64,000 bases of DNA from Bacillota bacterium (GTDB lineage Bacteria > Bacillota > Sulfobacillia > Sulfobacillales > Sulfobacillaceae). The position numbers and the translations under genes are program-made. Positions 45,174 through 53,223 of this stretch are shown one piece after another (within the stretch, counting starts at the first letter, position 1; each line of letters opens with the position of its first letter). Location of the stretch: positions 1-64,000 of the forward strand of contig JAKACM010000014.1 in NCBI GenBank assembly GCA_021821465.1. The letters are read 5' to 3'. Below the pieces are notes generated by a model. It searched no databases. It saw only the letters and a program-made list of their open reading frames with translations, and was not told where the DNA came from.

Positions 45174-45250
45174 CGCGGGGTAGAGCAGCCAGGTAGCTCG
45201 TCGGGCTCATAACCCGGAGGCCGCAGGTTCAAATCCTGCCCCCGCAACCA
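45174..45250 (+). tRNA. Initiator tRNA-fMet (CAT)
   Basis: A 77-base tRNA with encoded CCA. C1 faces A72, and the anticodon stem carries the three G-C pairs typical of initiators (CGGG CTCATAA CCCG). The anticodon is CAT. Confidence 0.96.
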
Positions 45251-45251
45251 T

Positions 45252-45328
45252 GGCGGTGTAGCTCAGTTGGTTAGAGCACACGGTTCATACCCGTGATGTC
45301 GGTGGTTCGAATCCACCCGCCGCTACCA
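45252..45328 (+). tRNA. Elongator tRNA-Met (CAT)
   Basis: A 77-base tRNA with encoded CCA. The acceptor stem is GGCGGTG with CGCCGCT, containing two G-U pairs, and the anticodon loop is TTCATAC. The sequence is close to the elongator tRNA-Met of Bacillus. An Ile-2 tRNA is less likely. Confidence 0.9.
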
Positions 45329-45338
45329 AAAATATCAT

Positions 45339-45414
<76 letters not shown>

Positions 45415-45725: not shown

Positions 45726-46514
45726 TTAGACGTGCGATTGTTGCGCCAATGTAACTAGTGCTTGCCGAGTGGGAAGAGGCAACCGTGGCCATAAAGTTTT
45801 TAGATCCTCCCATAGCGGATCTTCCGGGGCTTCCACCTTATCATGGCGTTGGCTGTGAATGGGCAACGACCCATTCAGAACCCATACTGCATCTACGAGC
45901 CAGACCCAGACAATACTTTTTACCTCAACCGAGTCATCTGGGAGCGGGTTGTCCCGATCCAGCAAATGACGCACCGATGCGGCATACACGGTCGGATCCG
46001 CGAGACGGAACATCGAAAACCATGCCGCTTGAGCTGCCTCCGCCGCCGCAGAGCCTTGTAGAGCCGAGATAAACCGTGGATAGCGCCGGCGGCCGACGTG
46101 TTTGTAATTAGCCGCCGCCACAGCGACTGCTGGGGCAGGATCCGACACGTGCTCAATCATCGTATGCAAAGCCACTGCCTGGCACGCGAGTGCCCAGCAC
46201 GTGTCCGGATCGTGAACAGGATCACTGTATCGAACGAGCAGAAATTGGGCTTCTTCAGGCCATGCCGCGTTGGCGGCATAGATCGCTGTGGTCCAAAGTT
46301 CGGGATCAGGTTGACCATCATGGATACCCGCGGACCACTTAAACAAGATATCGACCGAAGGCATGATCAACCCGCGTTCAGTCCGGGATAGCACTGACGT
46401 GCTGATCCCGGAGCTCCGCGACAGTTCACGCAGACTGTGTAGGCCGTACAATACTCGAACTCCGCGGCAAAAGGCCGGAAGTGCAGCGTCTGGAGGGATT
46501 AAGGGAAGATCCAT
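45726..46514 (-). CDS. XRE-family transcriptional regulator
   Basis: About 262 residues. The helix-turn-helix lies near residues 20-55 (LRELSRSSGISTSVLSRTERG). The C-terminal 200 residues are Ala- and Trp-rich helices of unknown function, perhaps a ligand or protein sensor. The start ATG 46514 follows GGCGGTGA. It is divergent from an excisionase-like gene with an operator between them, as in phage and ICE control regions. Confidence 0.8.
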   Translation of the reverse strand: MDLPLIPPDAALPAFCRGVRVLYGLHSLRELSRSSGISTSVLSRTERGLIMPSVDILFKWSAGIHDGQPDPELWTTAIYAANAAWPEEAQFLLVRYSDPVHDPDTCWALACQAVALHTMIEHVSDPAPAVAVAAANYKHVGRRRYPRFISALQGSAAAEAAQAAWFSMFRLADPTVYAASVRHLLDRDNPLPDDSVEVKSIVWVWLVDAVWVLNGSLPIHSQRHDKVEAPEDPLWEDLKTLWPRLPLPTRQALVTLAQQSHV

Positions 46515-46610
46515 GAGGTCACCGCCTTTGTCTTGCTGTTGCGACAAAAGTAACACACTACGTAATATTGCGCAACTCGTATGAAGACGAGGAATTTATT
46601 TTTACGTGGT

Positions 46611-46662: not shown

Positions 46663-46851
46663 ATGGCACGTAAGATAAAACCCATCAATCCCGCGCAAAA
46701 GTATTGTTCGCCGCGGCAAGCGGCTTGGGTAATGGGTATTAGTGAATATTTACTATATCGGATGTACCATGTGGGACAGATTCCCGGAGCACGAGAAATA
46801 GGCGGCAGGATTCTCATTCCGGTTTCGTGGGTGATGGGTGAAGTTTCTTAG
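46663..46851 (+). CDS. Excisionase-like MerR/HTH_17 protein
   Basis: A 62-residue DNA-binding protein with the excisionase-type pattern SPRQAAWVMGISEYLLYRM and the wing GGRILIPVSWV. It may act as excision factor or as a regulator of the downstream helicase. The start follows GGGAGGTGAT. A related 65-residue copy is at 51034. The two share ARKxKPIxPxQKY at the start. Confidence 0.82.
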   Translation: MARKIKPINPAQKYCSPRQAAWVMGISEYLLYRMYHVGQIPGAREIGGRILIPVSWVMGEVS

Positions 46852-47104
46852 CGTTATAACTAAGTATAACCGGATCGACCGCGCTGGGGGGTTAATGTGG
46901 CGCCGGAACGCGGAGTAGCCGTTGGGGATGAATGGTTACTCTGCCGGGCGTTTTGATGAAAAAGGAAGATTTCATTTTCATCAATATTTGACACCGCGGA
47001 ACTGCCTTGATGTTCGCACCAAGGACTTAAAAAGTGCCCCGGGCGGATGGGTGACCGCAGCCCAGCATCCCCGATCCTTCTTTCTTTAGAAAAAGGAGGA
47101 TCAC
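46852..47104 (+). ncRNA. Structured leader A before the DnaB-like gene
   Basis: A 253-base untranslated region. GGGGATG (46924-46930) can pair with CATCCCC (47066-47072). Between them CCTTG...CAAGG (47005-47009, 47020-47024) forms a hairpin with a TTCG tetraloop. GATCCTTCTTT (47073-47083) pairs with AAAGGAGGATC (47092-47102), which contains the ribosome site; the stem is 11 bp with one G-U and the loop 8 bases. The conserved start CGGATCGACC is at 46871. A 7-codon frame from 46895 may be a leader peptide. Leader B at 51232 has the same plan, which supports a real cis-acting RNA. The regulator is unknown. Confidence 0.7.
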
Positions 47105-48481
47105 ATGAACGAGAACGATGAAAAAAACACCCCCGTATCAGCGGGAGTGAGCGAGTCGAACAACTCTACCGAAACCATAGCACAAGCCCAACAAAATCGC
47201 AAGAAGCATGCGCTGGAAACTCTCGCCATTGGGCTGCTAAACCAAGCAGCCCAGCCGGACGGCGGCGATCCCCAAGTCGCCCGGCGGGCGATCCAAAAAG
47301 CGCAACTCCTGTTAAAATCCCAGCCTCAGCCACTCCCCCGAGGCCAAACCATCCAAGAAATTTGGGCGGCGATGGCCCAAGTGCCGGCGGCAATTCCAAC
47401 AATAAAGGCATTACAAGGAGTGTTGGCGACAATTCAGTACGAACCAGGCTTGAACATTATTGCCGCCCCAACAAGCGCAGGTAAAACCTCTTTGATTATC
47501 CAGCAAGTGTTGGAATGGCTGTTGGATCCACAAAGCATAGGTACCATCCTGTTCTGGTCCGCCGAAACGTCGCGATCCAAGGTGTGGGCTAAACTCTGGG
47601 CTAGCCAGGCTAGCACATTGCAAACGACCGGAAGAGCGCCGATCGGCATGCACACTGTGCTGGATGCCGCTCGCGGCAAGTGGCAAGGGGCAGTGCCTTT
47701 CGAAATTTTACAGGCGCAAAAAATGATGGATCCCGTGTCCAAACGGTTAATCGTGCTGGACGAAACCGTGACGGCTTGGGAACTTATCGAGATGGCACGA
47801 CGCTTTGCAGACGAAAGCCCGGACGGGCTCTATGCACTCGTGATCGACTATATCCAAGAATTGCCCGCTGTGCCGGAGAATCACCCTATGTATATGCGTT
47901 TGCAGAGCTCACGGGAGTTAGAGGTGGGGATTGTCGCACGAATGTTTCGTGAGTTTGGGCATGAGTATGGAGTACCCGTACTGTCGGCGGCCCAATTTAA
48001 CCGGACCGTGAACAAAAACACGGACTATGTCCCGGATCTGCAACAATTAAGGGAAAGCGGGCGGATTGAGCAAAATGCCACACTGGTATTGGGATTAAGA
48101 AACGAAACGATGTCGGGTACCAATGGCGATCAAGCTCAGCACAACGGCAGTGTAGCCTCAACCAAAACGTACACCATGTTTGACGCCAAACAGTTAGACG
48201 CCGCAAGGGGCGGGGCCATGGCAACGGTGCGGACGGAACTGGGTCAGGATTGGATCCTGCTCGAAGCGTTCGTGCTAAAAAACCGCGAGTGGGGCGGGGT
48301 GGGCACGGTGATTCCCATGGGTTTTCAGCCCGCATCAGGACGGATTGAGCCGTTGCCATTTCGACTGCTATCAGGAGGAGGAAAGGGTGGGAACAAGAGC
48401 AAGGGTAGCAATAATGGCCCCACAGCAAAGACACAACCGCAGGAGGATCACGATGATGACGACTACTTCGGGCGCGCGTAA
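47105..48481 (+). CDS. DnaB-like RecA-fold helicase
   Basis: A 458-residue protein with a disordered N-terminal 110 residues and a RecA-fold core. Walker A APTSAGKTS is at 121-129, the Walker B Asp is at 248 (ALVIDYIQEL), AAQFNR at 295-300 and RESGRIEQNA at 316-325 match the DnaB H4 region. It would unwind the element's DNA during replication. The usual N-terminal DnaB domain is replaced by a different region. Its ribosome site is inside the SD-covering hairpin of leader A. Confidence 0.8.
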   Translation: MNENDEKNTPVSAGVSESNNSTETIAQAQQNRKKHALETLAIGLLNQAAQPDGGDPQVARRAIQKAQLLLKSQPQPLPRGQTIQEIWAAMAQVPAAIPTIKALQGVLATIQYEPGLNIIAAPTSAGKTSLIIQQVLEWLLDPQSIGTILFWSAETSRSKVWAKLWASQASTLQTTGRAPIGMHTVLDAARGKWQGAVPFEILQAQKMMDPVSKRLIVLDETVTAWELIEMARRFADESPDGLYALVIDYIQELPAVPENHPMYMRLQSSRELEVGIVARMFREFGHEYGVPVLSAAQFNRTVNKNTDYVPDLQQLRESGRIEQNATLVLGLRNETMSGTNGDQAQHNGSVASTKTYTMFDAKQLDAARGGAMATVRTELGQDWILLEAFVLKNREWGGVGTVIPMGFQPASGRIEPLPFRLLSGGGKGGNKSKGSNNGPTAKTQPQEDHDDDDYFGRA

Positions 48482-49343
48482 ACAAGGCCGCGGCAAAAAC
48501 CTCAAATTTTATCGCAACTTTTACAAAAATCCTCGGAAACGGCAAGTACCTGTGGGACCCGCGATTGCCCCTGCGCTTATATCCCGTACAGCGGTATTCC
48601 AACCCAAATTTAAAAACATCCAAAACGGTACCTGGACTTGGGCAACAGCTTGGGGGACGGTGACCGTAAGCGGTAGGCTGGGAGCTTTGCATCGCAAGGT
48701 GCTCGACGCGATTTTCGCGTCGGCGATCAAAACTAAACGGATCCCCGAAACCGGCGGACAAATGATGGTGATTGATCCTTATCGTGTTGCCAAACTCACG
48801 GGCACGTCCAAAAGTCATCCGCAATGGCTCAAGACCATACTCCAAGACATGCAAAATGCGACCGTGACGATTGTCAACAAAACCAATGGCGATCAATATT
48901 GGAGACACATCATTTCAGACATTTGGCTGTCTCAACACCCGGCGGAGATGCCGGGTGGAGCCCTGACGGGCCAACGTGCGTTATTTGTCGTGACGATCAG
49001 CCCAGGCTGGATGCAAATTTATGACACCTCCCTAGTAATGCGGTATCGCAACGTACTGCCGATCTTGGCCGCAATTGAAAGCGGAGCAACCTATGCGCTA
49101 GCACTTCACGTTTTAACGCACTCGGGCGGTTGCTTTGCTGTCGATAACCTTTTGCAAACCGTAGGGGTGGAGTGGGCGGAGATGTCCCGCCAACGGCGGC
49201 ACACCATCTTGCAGGAAATAAAAAACGCCGAACCCCAACTGAAAAAGCTGGGCATGGAGCTTTACACCCAATCGGATGGACAACTCATGGTTAGCTACCA
49301 TCCCACCGGTGACGTGTCGTTTGCTAGTCCAACGAAAAAATAA
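48453..49343 (+). CDS. Probable replication initiator (winged-helix)
   Basis: About 296 residues from ATG 48453, six bases after AGGAGG and 29 bases inside the helicase gene. VSGRLGALHRKVLDAIF and VLTHSGGCFAVDNLLQTVGV resemble the winged-helix domains of RepA/TrfA-type initiators. No catalytic motif is visible. The position after a helicase and before a gene-free area with a hairpin supports a replication role. This is the least certain replication gene. Confidence 0.5.
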   Translation: MMTTTSGARKQGRGKNLKFYRNFYKNPRKRQVPVGPAIAPALISRTAVFQPKFKNIQNGTWTWATAWGTVTVSGRLGALHRKVLDAIFASAIKTKRIPETGGQMMVIDPYRVAKLTGTSKSHPQWLKTILQDMQNATVTIVNKTNGDQYWRHIISDIWLSQHPAEMPGGALTGQRALFVVTISPGWMQIYDTSLVMRYRNVLPILAAIESGATYALALHVLTHSGGCFAVDNLLQTVGVEWAEMSRQRRHTILQEIKNAEPQLKKLGMELYTQSDGQLMVSYHPTGDVSFASPTKK

Positions 49344-49355
49344 GGAGGAACCCAT

Positions 49356-49412
49356 ATGAGCGGGATGTCAACCCATATGAGCGGGTTTGTAGTAGTAACT
49401 AGCAATAGCTAG
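49356..49412 (+). CDS. Possible 18-residue small protein or leader peptide
   Basis: ATG 49356 lies seven bases after AGGAGG, directly after the initiator stop. The frame encodes MSGMSTHMSGFVVVTSNS and stops at 49410-49412, one base before an 11-bp hairpin. Its first half repeats itself (ATGAGCGGG twice). The strong ribosome site is the only support. Confidence 0.35.
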   Translation: MSGMSTHMSGFVVVTSNS

Positions 49413-49444
49413 GGGCCTCCGGCTTCTAAAGTCGCCGGAGGCCC
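49413..49444. repeat. 11-bp perfect hairpin
   Basis: GGGCCTCCGGC (49413-49423) and GCCGGAGGCCC (49434-49444) are separated by ten bases. No T tract follows, so it may be an attenuator or replication hairpin rather than a standard terminator. Confidence 0.6.
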
Positions 49445-50188
49445 AGGACCAAGACCCCCAAAAGGGGAAGAAGAAATGTGGCCTGCTACTTTCTTTCCTC
49501 ATATAGGTATGGTTTGCCAGGACGGAAAAACCTTGCGATTGCGAGATTTTTTTCTGCCCTGTTGGCCGATGGGGCATCTCTGCCCTGTCACCCTGAGGTG
49601 TCCTGATGTCACTGTGGAGTGACAGCATGACTTACGCTGCAGCCGTCATCCAGGCACAAGACGCGATGGACACGTGGCTATATGGACATCGGGCGTTGGG
49701 GTATGCCATTCCGCAACCCGATTGGTATCAGGCTACGGAGAATGGACCACGGCACCCACTACGGCACGCCGAGAGACCATGATATCAATGTTGAGGCGGT
49801 CGTCGCGTACCAGCAAGTTTGGTTATTTAACACCAACCAACCAAGACATGCAGACAGAGGTCACGATCGATGACTGCGACGAAGCGGGTTACCTCACCGC
49901 CCAAACGGTCTGGATGTTCCCCTTGCCACCGCGGCCGAAGCCACCGTGGCTCGTCTAAGTCTAAGCGCATGGTTCGCATGGTTTCCCCAGAGGATTTTGA
50001 GAAAACCATGCACCAAACCATGCGGCCGGAAAGCGGCCACTGGAGCGAGTTTCAGAGGTCGTTAGCACTACTACGCATGGTTTGCATGGTTTTGTTAAAA
50101 TAGCCCACGGGCCGCAGAACGGGCCGCAGGAAATCGGCCAACGTTCACAGCATGCCCCAGGACGGAACCTGACCACCCTTACGTGGAA
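49445..50188. other. Gene-poor stretch in the mobile element
   Basis: A 51-codon frame at 49627-49782 and continuing similar stretches in the other two frames up to 49958 suggest a decayed gene. Two CGGGCCGCA repeats lie at 50108 and 50120. No other gene is supported. Confidence 0.4.
49627..49782 (+). CDS. Possible small or decayed gene
   Basis: ATG 49627 with GGAG ten bases upstream gives 51 residues (AAVIQAQDAMDTWLYGHRAL in part). Protein-like stretches then shift frame (YGTPRDHDINVEAVVAYQQ), so the full gene may be frameshifted. No family is recognised. Confidence 0.3.
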   Translation: MTYAAAVIQAQDAMDTWLYGHRALGYAIPQPDWYQATENGPRHPLRHAERP

Positions 50189-50216
50189 TAAAAAAGCAGC
50201 CCGGAATCCTTCCGGG
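50189..50216 (-). terminator. Terminator of the second XRE gene
   Basis: On the reverse strand CCCGGAA and TTCCGGG form a 7-bp stem with a three-base loop, followed by CTGC and T-rich sequence. Confidence 0.75.
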
Positions 50217-50251
50217 CCTCACGGGCCGCAATGACGGGCCGCAGGAAAGAT

Positions 50252-50836
50252 CTAGTTCCGGAGCGCCAACGCCAAGGGCACAGCCACCCATTCCGTATCG
50301 CTGCCCCCGCGTAAATGACCGCGAAGCAAGCCCACTATCTCTAAACCGCCCGGCGCCGGGGACTGAGGCAATGCCTGCGCAAGCTCGGGCTCCATAGGTT
50401 CCGGTTGCGCAAAGTCCAAGTGGAGACCATCAGTCGCCACCAATAGCCAATCCACCAGGAGGCCGTCTTCTGCCGCAACCGCCCATTCAAACCGTTCAGA
50501 CCGACTTTTTGGACCCCAAATACCTTCCCATGTTTCTGCGTCCATGCCTTTCTGTTCCCATGCAGTCGCAGTATGTAACACCAATTGCAACATGGACGTG
50601 CGGTAAGCATAGATTAAATCCCAATACACTTGCTCTTGGGCTGATGGGGCCTCCCCGACCAAACTCAGAAGTTGCGGTGAGAGCTTTTGTGGAGGTCGGC
50701 GTCGTCCAGTTTCCACCGCCAAAATACTGCTCGCAGACATGGCTCCTTGCAGCAGTCGTGCGGACGATACAGCAGAAAGACCTTGGGACTCTCGAGCTGT
50801 TCGCAGTACGTGCCCCCAAAATCGATGTAGTGTCAC
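50252..50836 (-). CDS. XRE-like transcriptional regulator
   Basis: A 194-residue protein with an N-terminal helix-turn-helix (residues 5-50: LSAVSSARLLQGAMSASSIL, ETGRRRPPQ). The C-terminal half is unrecognised. It is divergent from an excisionase-like gene, repeating the arrangement at 45726-46851. The two XRE proteins are alike in layout but not clearly related outside the HTH. Confidence 0.7.
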   Translation of the reverse strand: MTLHRFWGHVLRTARESQGLSAVSSARLLQGAMSASSILAVETGRRRPPQKLSPQLLSLVGEAPSAQEQVYWDLIYAYRTSMLQLVLHTATAWEQKGMDAETWEGIWGPKSRSERFEWAVAAEDGLLVDWLLVATDGLHLDFAQPEPMEPELAQALPQSPAPGGLEIVGLLRGHLRGGSDTEWVAVPLALALRN

Positions 50837-50903
50837 GAATCATCGTCTCCTTTGCGTTGTGTTCGATAAAATATCGTTCAACTACACCAACAATATCACA
50901 CAC

Positions 50904-50980
50904 ATACTTACTATGAAAGTACTTGACACAATTACTGTGACATTATATTATGAATAAGGACGCACGCACAAAGTAAGTAT
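50904..50980. promoter_or_regulatory. Promoter flanked by an inverted operator pair
   Basis: TTGACA (50923-50928) and TATTAT (50946-50951) have a 17-base spacer. ATACTTAC (50904-50911) and GTAAGTAT (50973-50980) flank the promoter as an 8-bp inverted pair and may bind the divergent XRE protein. Confidence 0.6.
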
Positions 50981-51033
50981 CGGACTTTGACAACTAAATC
51001 GTTCTAACAAAATCCCCCGGGAGGTGCAAAAAA

Positions 51034-51231
51034 ATGGCACGCAAACCGAAACCGATCGACCCTGAACAAAAATACCTCAGTCCACGTCAGGCCGCGAGAG
51101 TGTTAGGAATTAGCGAATTCTTGATTTACCGGGAAGTTGCGGCCGGCACTGTGCCGCACCGCAAAATTGGTACGCGAATTTTGATTCCCGTGAGTTGGGT
51201 GTCCGGTGAGTTGGGAAATAAGGTTATTTAA
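51034..51231 (+). CDS. Excisionase-like MerR/HTH_17 protein, second copy
   Basis: A 65-residue homologue of the protein at 46663. SPRQAARVLGISEFLIYREV and TRILIPVSWVSGEL cover the helix-turn-helix and wing. GGGAGGTG precedes the ATG. It may control excision or the downstream primase-helicase. Confidence 0.82.
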   Translation: MARKPKPIDPEQKYLSPRQAARVLGISEFLIYREVAAGTVPHRKIGTRILIPVSWVSGELGNKVI

Positions 51232-51462
51232 TCAATGTCGAAACATTCGGATCGACCCGGCGGGGGATATGTGTATGCGTCAATCGGGGCGGAAGCTGTG
51301 GGGATGAACAGCACCAAACCGGACGCATTTTTTAAACACGCGGGACTGCCTTGCTTGTGATGTGAAAAGCGAGGACTTTTATAGAAGACGCCCCACCGGG
51401 AAGTGCGGCCGCCGCAGCCGTCGCATCCCCGATCCTCTTTTTTTAAACAAAAGGAGGATCCT
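51232..51462 (+). ncRNA. Structured leader B before the primase-helicase gene
   Basis: A 231-base region homologous in plan to leader A. CGGATCGACC is at 51248. GGGGATG (51300-51306) can pair with CATCCCC (51424-51430). CCTTGCTT (51349-51356) pairs with AAGCGAGG (51367-51374), whose sequence differs from leader A but keeps pairing. GATCCTCTTTT (51431-51441) pairs with AAAGGAGGATC (51450-51460), covering the ribosome site with an 11-bp stem and 8-base loop. A 12-codon frame from 51269 ends at 51307, inside the GGGGATG arm, so a translating ribosome could open the long-range pairing. The mechanism is inferred. Confidence 0.7.
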
Positions 51463-53223
51463 ATGAAGAACGAAAACGAACAGCAAAAGCAAAACGCTCC
51501 CGTGATGGCGGGGGTGGACGAGCAGAAGATTCCTATTGAGAACAGTACCGCACAAGACCAGGAATCAGGCAAGAATGCTGATGAGCAGCGCGACGTGACT
51601 CAAAATAATGTGGCTCAGGTGACGTTGCCGGGCGACACCAAACCCGACTGGCTTCAGTCGCTCAGAGCGCATATGGACGAGATGATTCACTGGTCCGGTG
51701 AGAAAAATCCCAAACCTGCGCTGGTGCCCGTGGCCGCCGGACAAATCCTTAATCAAATCGCCCCGGTCCGATGGTTAGGCGACAATGTCATGGTGTACAT
51801 TGCGGCAATAGGGCACTGGACGCCGGCACGTTATTTGCTTACGCAAACATTGACCGAATTTGTGCCGGAGCTTTACCCTACATGGGGACTTAAACAAGCC
51901 AAAGAGATTCTGGAACATGCCGGGGTGCTGAGCGGAGACTATGTTCACCGCGATCAACCGAATCGAGCCGAACTGATCGCGAAAACCTGGGATGCTCAAC
52001 CGTACATTACTTTCCAGAATGGAGATTTGTATGTGCCGGACCTGAAACTGGTCGATCACGACCCCGGACACCTCACCACATGGGCTGTACCATGCGACTG
52101 GGATCCGAACGCACACAGTGCTAAGGTGGATCAGTTTCTTCGGAGTGCCATTCCGGATCGTGTAGGGCGGCGGAATTATTTGGCTTTTCTCGGCTATGCG
52201 CTCGCACGATATGACACCTCTCAACACATGTTCATTTATCTGAAAGGACACGGCAGTAACGGAAAATCTCTCGCACTAAAACTGAATCGCCGGTTGTTCG
52301 GCGCGTACTGGTCGAACACCAGCCTCGAAAAACTCGTAGGCAGCCGGTTTGGGGCAGCGAACCTCGTGTTCAGCGCCCTCAATTTCGTCGGGGATCAAGA
52401 CGCGGTGTTTTTATCGAATACTTCGCTGCTTAAGGAGCTCACGGGGTTCGACGCAATTGAAACCGAGAAGAAATTTCGCGATGCTTTTGCGTTCATCGCC
52501 AAAACCAAGCTGATGTTCGCCGTGAACGGCTTGCCGAAAACCAAAGATGTGAGCCATGGTTTTTTCCGCCGTCCCCTTATTATTGAATTCCCCATCATCT
52601 TTCGCCAGAATGACGCCTATGAAGAAAACTTGCTGTCAGACGACACGGTAGTGCAAGCGCTAGCGGTGCAAGCGATCCGAGACTACCGTGCCATGCTAAA
52701 ACATGGGGGATTTTGGATGGAGGGACGGACCCAACAACTCCTCGAAGAATACCGAGCCGACAACGATGTGGTATATGCTGCGGTCAAAGATGGCTTGATC
52801 TCTGGAGATCCGGATGGACAAATAGAGCGCTGGGCACTTACGCTTTTGATAAATTTCTACGGAGCTGAGCGCGAAAACCAAAAACTCAGCCAATCCGTGA
52901 TCAAAGAACGGTTGGGCCACGCCGGGCTGTCGGTGGTCGCAAAACGGGCCGCCACGGGAGACCGCGCATGGTATGTTCACGGAATCAGCATTGATGGCCA
53001 ACAAGCTCGTGCCTTGGTGGATCGCGCAGCCACCACGGGCATCGATGGACAGCCAACGGTAAACACCGGGAACGGGAAACGCAAATCCGTCGCGGAATTT
53101 CTGAAAGCGTTGAGAGTGGATCTGAAAGCATTGAGAGCCGATGATCCGGATCAAGTAACCGACCCCGAAATTGCGTCGGCCTTGGGAGGCCGCGGGAAGG
53201 GAGGAGACAGCACATGGATATAA
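51463..53223 (+). CDS. P4/D5-type primase-helicase (SF3)
   Basis: A 586-residue replication protein. The SF3 helicase core has Walker A GHGSNGKS at 262-269, FVGDQDA near 308-314, the sensor Asn355 in FAVNGLPKTKD and arginines in GFFRRPLIIEFP. The region before it matches the D5_N domain of phage and plasmid primases. The first 20 residues (NENEQQKQNAPVMAGVDE) resemble the start of the DnaB-like protein at 47105. The start is ATG 51463 in the SD-hairpin of leader B. Confidence 0.88.
   Translation: MKNENEQQKQNAPVMAGVDEQKIPIENSTAQDQESGKNADEQRDVTQNNVAQVTLPGDTKPDWLQSLRAHMDEMIHWSGEKNPKPALVPVAAGQILNQIAPVRWLGDNVMVYIAAIGHWTPARYLLTQTLTEFVPELYPTWGLKQAKEILEHAGVLSGDYVHRDQPNRAELIAKTWDAQPYITFQNGDLYVPDLKLVDHDPGHLTTWAVPCDWDPNAHSAKVDQFLRSAIPDRVGRRNYLAFLGYALARYDTSQHMFIYLKGHGSNGKSLALKLNRRLFGAYWSNTSLEKLVGSRFGAANLVFSALNFVGDQDAVFLSNTSLLKELTGFDAIETEKKFRDAFAFIAKTKLMFAVNGLPKTKDVSHGFFRRPLIIEFPIIFRQNDAYEENLLSDDTVVQALAVQAIRDYRAMLKHGGFWMEGRTQQLLEEYRADNDVVYAAVKDGLISGDPDGQIERWALTLLINFYGAERENQKLSQSVIKERLGHAGLSVVAKRAATGDRAWYVHGISIDGQQARALVDRAATTGIDGQPTVNTGNGKRKSVAEFLKALRVDLKALRADDPDQVTDPEIASALGGRGKGGDSTWI

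Follow-up and report, generated by a model that had tools for sequence, protein, structure and literature searches.

Why would two unrelated replication genes of a single integrated element be headed by the same kind of leader? This question is raised by a stretch of 64,000 bases (the window, bases 1-64000 of the 68,456-base contig JAKACM010000014.1) from the 4.96-Mb genome of a member of the Sulfobacillaceae (GCA_021821465.1). Within it, two candidate structured intergenic RNAs, leader A (46852-47104) and leader B (51232-51462), precede a DnaB-like helicase gene and a D5-like primase-helicase gene, respectively; features are on the plus strand unless stated otherwise. The original prediction for this locus had described a pair of homologous, structured leaders in front of different helicase genes, with the ribosome site occluded in each. 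This was right in substance for the genes, and it is supported for the leaders by a joint motif count, a consensus folding energy, a slip-tolerant comparison of structures and the accessibility of the Shine-Dalgarno (SD) sequence. We conclude that A and B are genuine: two paralogous, structured leaders, each of which buries its SD, on a putative integrative conjugative element (ICE). Whether they are also cis-acting RNAs of ~220 nucleotides that act as a translational switch on the mRNAs of the two replication modules of this element is, in our judgment, about evenly balanced.

The leaders have five sequence blocks in common over ~220 bases. The block CGGATCGACC lies at 46871 in A and at 51248 in B, and GGGGATG (46924 and 51300) is followed by its complement CATCCCC (47066 and 51424) after gaps of 135 and 117 bases, so that the shared block and the distant pairing of the original prediction are confirmed at the level of single bases. 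The conserved upstream blocks are CGGATCGACC, GGGGATGA, GCGG(A/G)ACTGCCTTG and CATCCCC, the last of which directly adjoins GATCC, the 5' arm of the hairpin that covers the SD. This hairpin has 11 bp and an 8-base loop in both leaders and sets the GATCC arm against AAAGGAGGATC (GATCCTTCTTT/AAAGGAGGATC at 47073-47102 in A; GATCCTCTTTT/AAAGGAGGATC at 51431-51460 in B, with a probability of 0.98). An 11-bp hairpin alone is not rare, as the window has 16 compared with 7-14 in shuffled windows; the joint pattern CATCCCCGATCC-N-AGGAGG has two occurrences there, where chance would give 0.00. Outside the conserved blocks, A and B are strongly diverged, with indels of 1, 1, 31, 6, 4 and 4 bases.

The SD had been proposed to be hidden in this stem, and the folding calculations agree, with a predicted unpaired probability of 0.03 in A and 0.00 in B compared with an average of 0.39 over 77 genes from these contigs. 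Among rep leaders of relatives that lack the A/B sequence, SD accessibility is 0.00-0.20 in four, while one (G021:C211) is open at 0.94. Moreover, in the short rep leaders of three related elements (G000:C64, G005:C102 and G032:C90), the strands GGAGC, GCTCCC and (A)GGAGG follow one another before the start codon and can pair among themselves. Like A and B, these leaders belong to a helix-turn-helix (HTH)/rep module and place three pairing strands around the SD; unlike A and B, they are short, local and of other sequence, and they may not share descent with A and B. Because several related rep genes show low SD accessibility and short local versions of this kind, our results suggest that buried SDs are a habit of the replication genes of these elements. 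We note separately that the arrangement GGAGC...GCTCCC...(A)GGAGG in the short rep leaders (L259, L260, L051) reads as a compact form of SD exchange.

Burial of the SD could be the whole story, if the SD-hiding hairpin alone matters and keeps the synthesis of the replication proteins low, while the rest of the leader is a spacer or a stable scaffold with no second state. In line with such simple repression, the SD hairpin is the best-supported helix, and elsewhere in the family short rep leaders hide the SD by different sequences. However, the far-upstream conserved blocks and the shared structure outside the SD hairpin would then be left without a reason to persist, and we regard simple repression as unlikely.

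That shared structure goes beyond shared sequence. The folding z scores of the single sequences are -4.0 for A and -2.0 for B, and RNAalifold gives -39.2 kcal/mol for both leaders together, compared with -24.3 +/- 4.2 for column shuffles (z = -3.6), a signal that stems largely from the SD hairpin. In addition, we compared the folding ensembles of the two leaders in a test that lets helices slip by at most 2 positions and whose shuffles keep conserved blocks of at least 5 bases. The shared-pair score of the whole leaders was 30.1 compared with 10.7 +/- 5.5, and without the SD hairpin it was 21.2 compared with 3.9 +/- 3.7, a value above that of all 150 shuffles. As judged by eye from the pair probabilities, this slip-tolerant signal probably comes for the most part from the P4-P5 arm. 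In A, P5 is the hairpin GAGTAGCCGTT-[GGGGATG]-AATGGTTACTC (46913-46941, apical loop 46924-46930, pair probability 1.00), and in B the P4-P5 arm (51275-51328, pair probability 0.99-1.00) consists of ATGCGTC/GACGCAT around GCTGT-[GGGGATGA]-ACAGC, with the loop sequence GGGGATG at 51300-51306. GGGGATG is the apical loop in both leaders, on stems that are unrelated: GAGTAGCCGTT/AATGGTTACTC in A, where the stem reaches 14 bp including flanking bases (p = 0.0001), and GCTGT/ACAGC in B, with 5 bp (p = 0.03).

The further hairpin that had been noticed between ACTG and ACTT flanks is present as well. This helix, P6, is CCTTG...CAAGG in A (47005-47024, with a probability of 0.02 in the thermodynamic ensemble of A) and the 8-bp CCTTGCTT/AAGCGAGG in B (51349-51374, probability 0.97). 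We take the P4-P5 arm and the SD hairpin to be real and P6 to be likely, while P2, P3 and P7 of the consensus as first drawn are proposals, which in A have a competing alternative, GCUGGG/CCCAGC, that two sequences cannot decide.

G.U pairs occur in P5 of A, in P6 of B and in the SD hairpin, and these favor an RNA read from the plus strand. An element that works as DNA, such as a replication origin, a single-strand initiation site or a protein-binding region that forms DNA hairpins and lies before the rep genes by chance, would be in keeping with the adjoining replication genes, the strong hairpins and the conserved GATC-containing blocks. We nevertheless consider it very unlikely, as the conserved 3' end matches the SD and start codon exactly, the other strand would give A.C in place of the G.U pairs that suit RNA, a single element with two origins at a distance of 4 kb would be unusual, and no iterons were seen.

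How might such an RNA have a second state? A complementarity that is absent from the original prediction offers a candidate. Near the 5' end of each leader, GGATCG (arm 1, 46872-46877 in A and 51249-51254 in B) is the complement of the 5' arm of the SD hairpin, CGATCC (47072-47077 and 51430-51435), and the predicted helix between them, P1, and the full SD hairpin are mutually exclusive. When the two states were imposed on the consensus fold, the calculated energies of the SD-hidden state and of P1 plus a weak slipped SD register were -70.0 and -70.7 kcal/mol in A and -69.4 and -67.7 kcal/mol in B. These values leave out the candidate pseudoknot between the P5 loop and CATCCCC (47066-47072 in A and 51424-51430 in B), which, if formed, would favor the P1 side. 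State energies that are computed to lie within 2 kcal/mol of each other are compatible with a switch and are not proof of one.

In the switch that we propose, the resting state, which the calculations support, would have CGATCC and the pyrimidine tract paired with AAAGGAGGATC and ribosome binding blocked. In the active state, the upstream domain would fold, the P5 apical loop GGGGAUG would pair with CAUCCCC, and the 5' GGAUCG would capture CGAUCC. This P1 exchange would remove the five strongest pairs of the SD hairpin and leave a weak U/C-rich register that could yield to a ribosome. Given that both of the unrelated replication genes are headed by this RNA, one common signal, possibly an element protein, a small molecule or co-transcriptional folding, would raise the helicase and the primase-helicase jointly, and such a joint rise may come as the element excises and replicates. 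The placement of the two copies, which take matching positions in modules whose rep genes differ, supports this proposal.

There is a precedent for such a layout. In IncI-type leaders, the SD lies in a stem, a hairpin loop is complementary to the strand beside that stem, and the resulting pseudoknot exposes the SD. Leaders A and B resemble the IncI, IncB and IncL/M leaders in that they precede a replication gene, hold the SD in a stem and have a hairpin loop complementary to the strand directly 5' of the SD stem; in both, GGGGATG is a loop and CATCCCC abuts GATCC, with the pairing itself predicted. The IncI-alpha (ColIb-P9 repZ), IncB and IncL/M rep leaders are described as pseudoknot translation switches (Asano and Mizobuchi 1998, Athanasopoulos 1999, as cited in PMC10724649), and IncI-type systems also have an antisense RNA and a repB leader peptide (PMC10286972).

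By the same logic, a counter-transcript that pairs with the P5 loop and blocks the SD-exposing pseudoknot with CATCCCC could control copy number here. The identical layout from loop to SD-proximal strand speaks for this, as does an open reading frame (ORF) of 53 codons in A (46928-47089): as a coupled leader peptide would, it starts at the AUG of the P5 loop and is closed by a UAG (47087-47089) within the loop of the SD hairpin. However, whereas IncI-type systems have an antisense RNA, no minus-strand sigma-70-like promoter site was found in either leader region. In B, the ORF from the same AUG stops 18 codons on, well short of the SD; no frame is conserved, and a counterpart of the leader peptide that opens the SD stem in IncI-type systems is seen in A only. 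The rep protein families differ too, with an IncI/FII-type RepA/RepZ initiator downstream in IncI-type systems and unrelated DnaB-like and D5-like proteins here. We therefore think that antisense control is quite improbable. A and B also depart from the IncI type in that there are two copies before two different genes, on an ICE and not a plasmid, and with no sequence similarity.

The fold proposed for A and B is also reminiscent of translational riboswitches with pseudoknot-controlled access to the SD, which likewise combine a compact multi-helix domain, a pseudoknot and anti-SD strand exchange. In contrast to known riboswitch classes, A and B have no Rfam match, their genes are not metabolic, and no ligand is indicated. 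A T-box was rejected, as the GGGTGACCGC of A is reminiscent of one but is absent from B and has no Rfam match. A protein-coding leader was rejected as well: the indels do not keep a frame (1, 1, 31, 6, 4 and 4 bases), no frame pair stands out, and there is no family match. Leader B has an open frame of 52 codons in which the stretch R-N/D-C-L..D-V is faintly similar to A, and several frame pairs score equally.

Further copies were sought with a covariance model, R1, which was built from A and B and retrieves B at 254 bits and A at 196 bits. It found nothing convincing beyond these two in 154 genomes of the class and no convincing copy in 398 genomes of the phylum, which partly overlap the class set; the single match there (L255) resembles, on inspection only, part of a Rieske-type protein gene. 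Neither exact patterns in the relatives, IMG/VR and 84,980 species genomes nor R1 over the loci that such patterns fetched from IMG/VR and the species genomes gave a third copy, and 21 pattern matches in IMG/VR were set aside because they are without the upstream half of the leader. In 61 related genomes, CATCCCCGATCC-N-AGGAGG does not occur again, and blastn with leader A returned only the known leaders; blastn with A or B against plasmid and phage collections gave no match. No Rfam 15 family exceeded its gathering threshold, and at relaxed thresholds there were only chance matches far below the cut-off. The original prediction had staked its case on homologues across many genomes, and half of it survives: two paralogues exist, but no third copy turned up anywhere searched. 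The leaders look new, yet unproven, and the evidence is thin because just two copies are known.

Several observations weigh against the proposed switch. With no third copy, conservation rests on two paralogues of one element. In a plain sequence alignment, 6 of the 29 variable pairs of the fold of B are canonical in A, compared with 10.8 under the null, so that the earlier claim that changed bases keep pairing failed in its strict form; the argument for a conserved RNA stands as far as the slip-tolerant shared structure is concerned, but not on simple covariation, which is not significant. The strands of P1 and of the pseudoknot are invariant between A and B, and both therefore stand as candidate pairings. 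The computed ensemble of A gives P2, P3, P6 and P7 low probabilities of about 0.02, and its pseudoknot-free minimum (-94.4 kcal/mol, with other pairings) is 24 kcal/mol below the consensus fold of A. The slipped register of the P1 state still covers part of the SD. Finally, the nearest relative of helicase A, which is 82% identical over 428 residues and is encoded in the same genome (L091, G000:C164), is preceded by a long, quite different leader with several hairpins, so that the leader RNA is dispensable for such helicases.

Could the likeness of A and B then be mainly one of descent, from a recent-enough duplication, with the shared fold a residual similarity that has no function? The presence of only two copies on the same element and the lack of significant column covariation would fit. 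Outside the conserved blocks the leaders have diverged strongly and gathered many indels, but both the SD hairpin and the P4-P5 arm have been kept, and we give this explanation very little credence.

The two modules that carry the leaders are built alike. Module A has a divergent HTH_3 repressor-like gene (45726-46556, minus strand), a small HTH_17/excisionase-like ORF of 62 aa (46663-46851; Pfam HTH_17 E 0.00025, below the curated cut-off), leader A, the DnaB-like helicase gene (47105-48481; Pfam DnaB_C 3.4e-25, phrog_19 4.6e-29) and then a 295-aa protein. In module B, a divergent HTH_31 repressor-like gene (50252-50836, minus strand) is followed by a small HTH_17/excisionase-like ORF of 65 aa (51034-51231; Pfam HTH_17 6.5e-7), leader B and the D5-like primase-helicase gene (51463-53223; Pfam DUF5906 6.7e-13, D5_N 5.9e-5, phrog_864 1.1e-44). 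The two HTH_17 ORFs are 67% identical. Each leader sits between the HTH ORF and the replication gene, directly behind the HTH stop codon, and both are thus placed within probable operons. Thirteen of 61 related genomes, most of them from the same taxonomic family, encode HTH ORFs of this family, and the A/B leader sequence is absent from the stretches read downstream of them. The locus that encodes the relative of helicase A also has a second version of the 295-aa protein, with 80% identity.

A separate observation concerns the starts of the rep genes. Several rep genes of these elements that are otherwise unrelated (the helicase A gene, L259, L260 and L261) encode K-N-T-P-V-x-x-G-V within their first 15 codons, with the DNA AAAAAAACACCCCCGT.....CGGGAGTG, and within the helicase A gene (47128-47149, minus strand) this DNA is scored as an intrinsic terminator that has a T7 tail. 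It may possibly be an antisense terminator that shields the leader, or it may encode a shared N-terminal peptide.

The genes sampled at ~12 to 43 kb are mostly chromosomal, flagellar genes among them, and the integrated element starts to the right of tRNA genes for Met, Met and Lys at 45174-45414. It appears conjugative because the far end of the contig (64001-68456, L112) encodes a type IV coupling protein (T4SS-DNA_transf 6.8e-54), TrbL, an ArdC-like anti-restriction protein and a weak match to a T4SS pilin. From these genes we infer an ICE that adjoins tRNA-Lys, an assignment that stays at this level since a search of the contig turned up no second att copy. The Met-Met-Lys trio of a related genome (L098, 4278-4522) also flanks an HTH/D5-type module, and other modules have other tRNA genes nearby. 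We rejected the idea of a tRNA array carried by the element; the tRNA genes beside several modules are better taken as integration sites.

The usual explanation of how ICE replication is controlled after excision invokes transcription factors. It is possible, if somewhat doubtful, that A and B represent a new class of pseudoknotted, SD-exchanging riboregulator, through which one shared trans signal would co-regulate two unrelated ICE replication proteins and couple replication to excision. If the proposed switch is true, a shared RNA before two replication genes would provide a post-transcriptional link between helicase and primase output, and the leaders would constitute a new cis-regulatory RNA outside Rfam.

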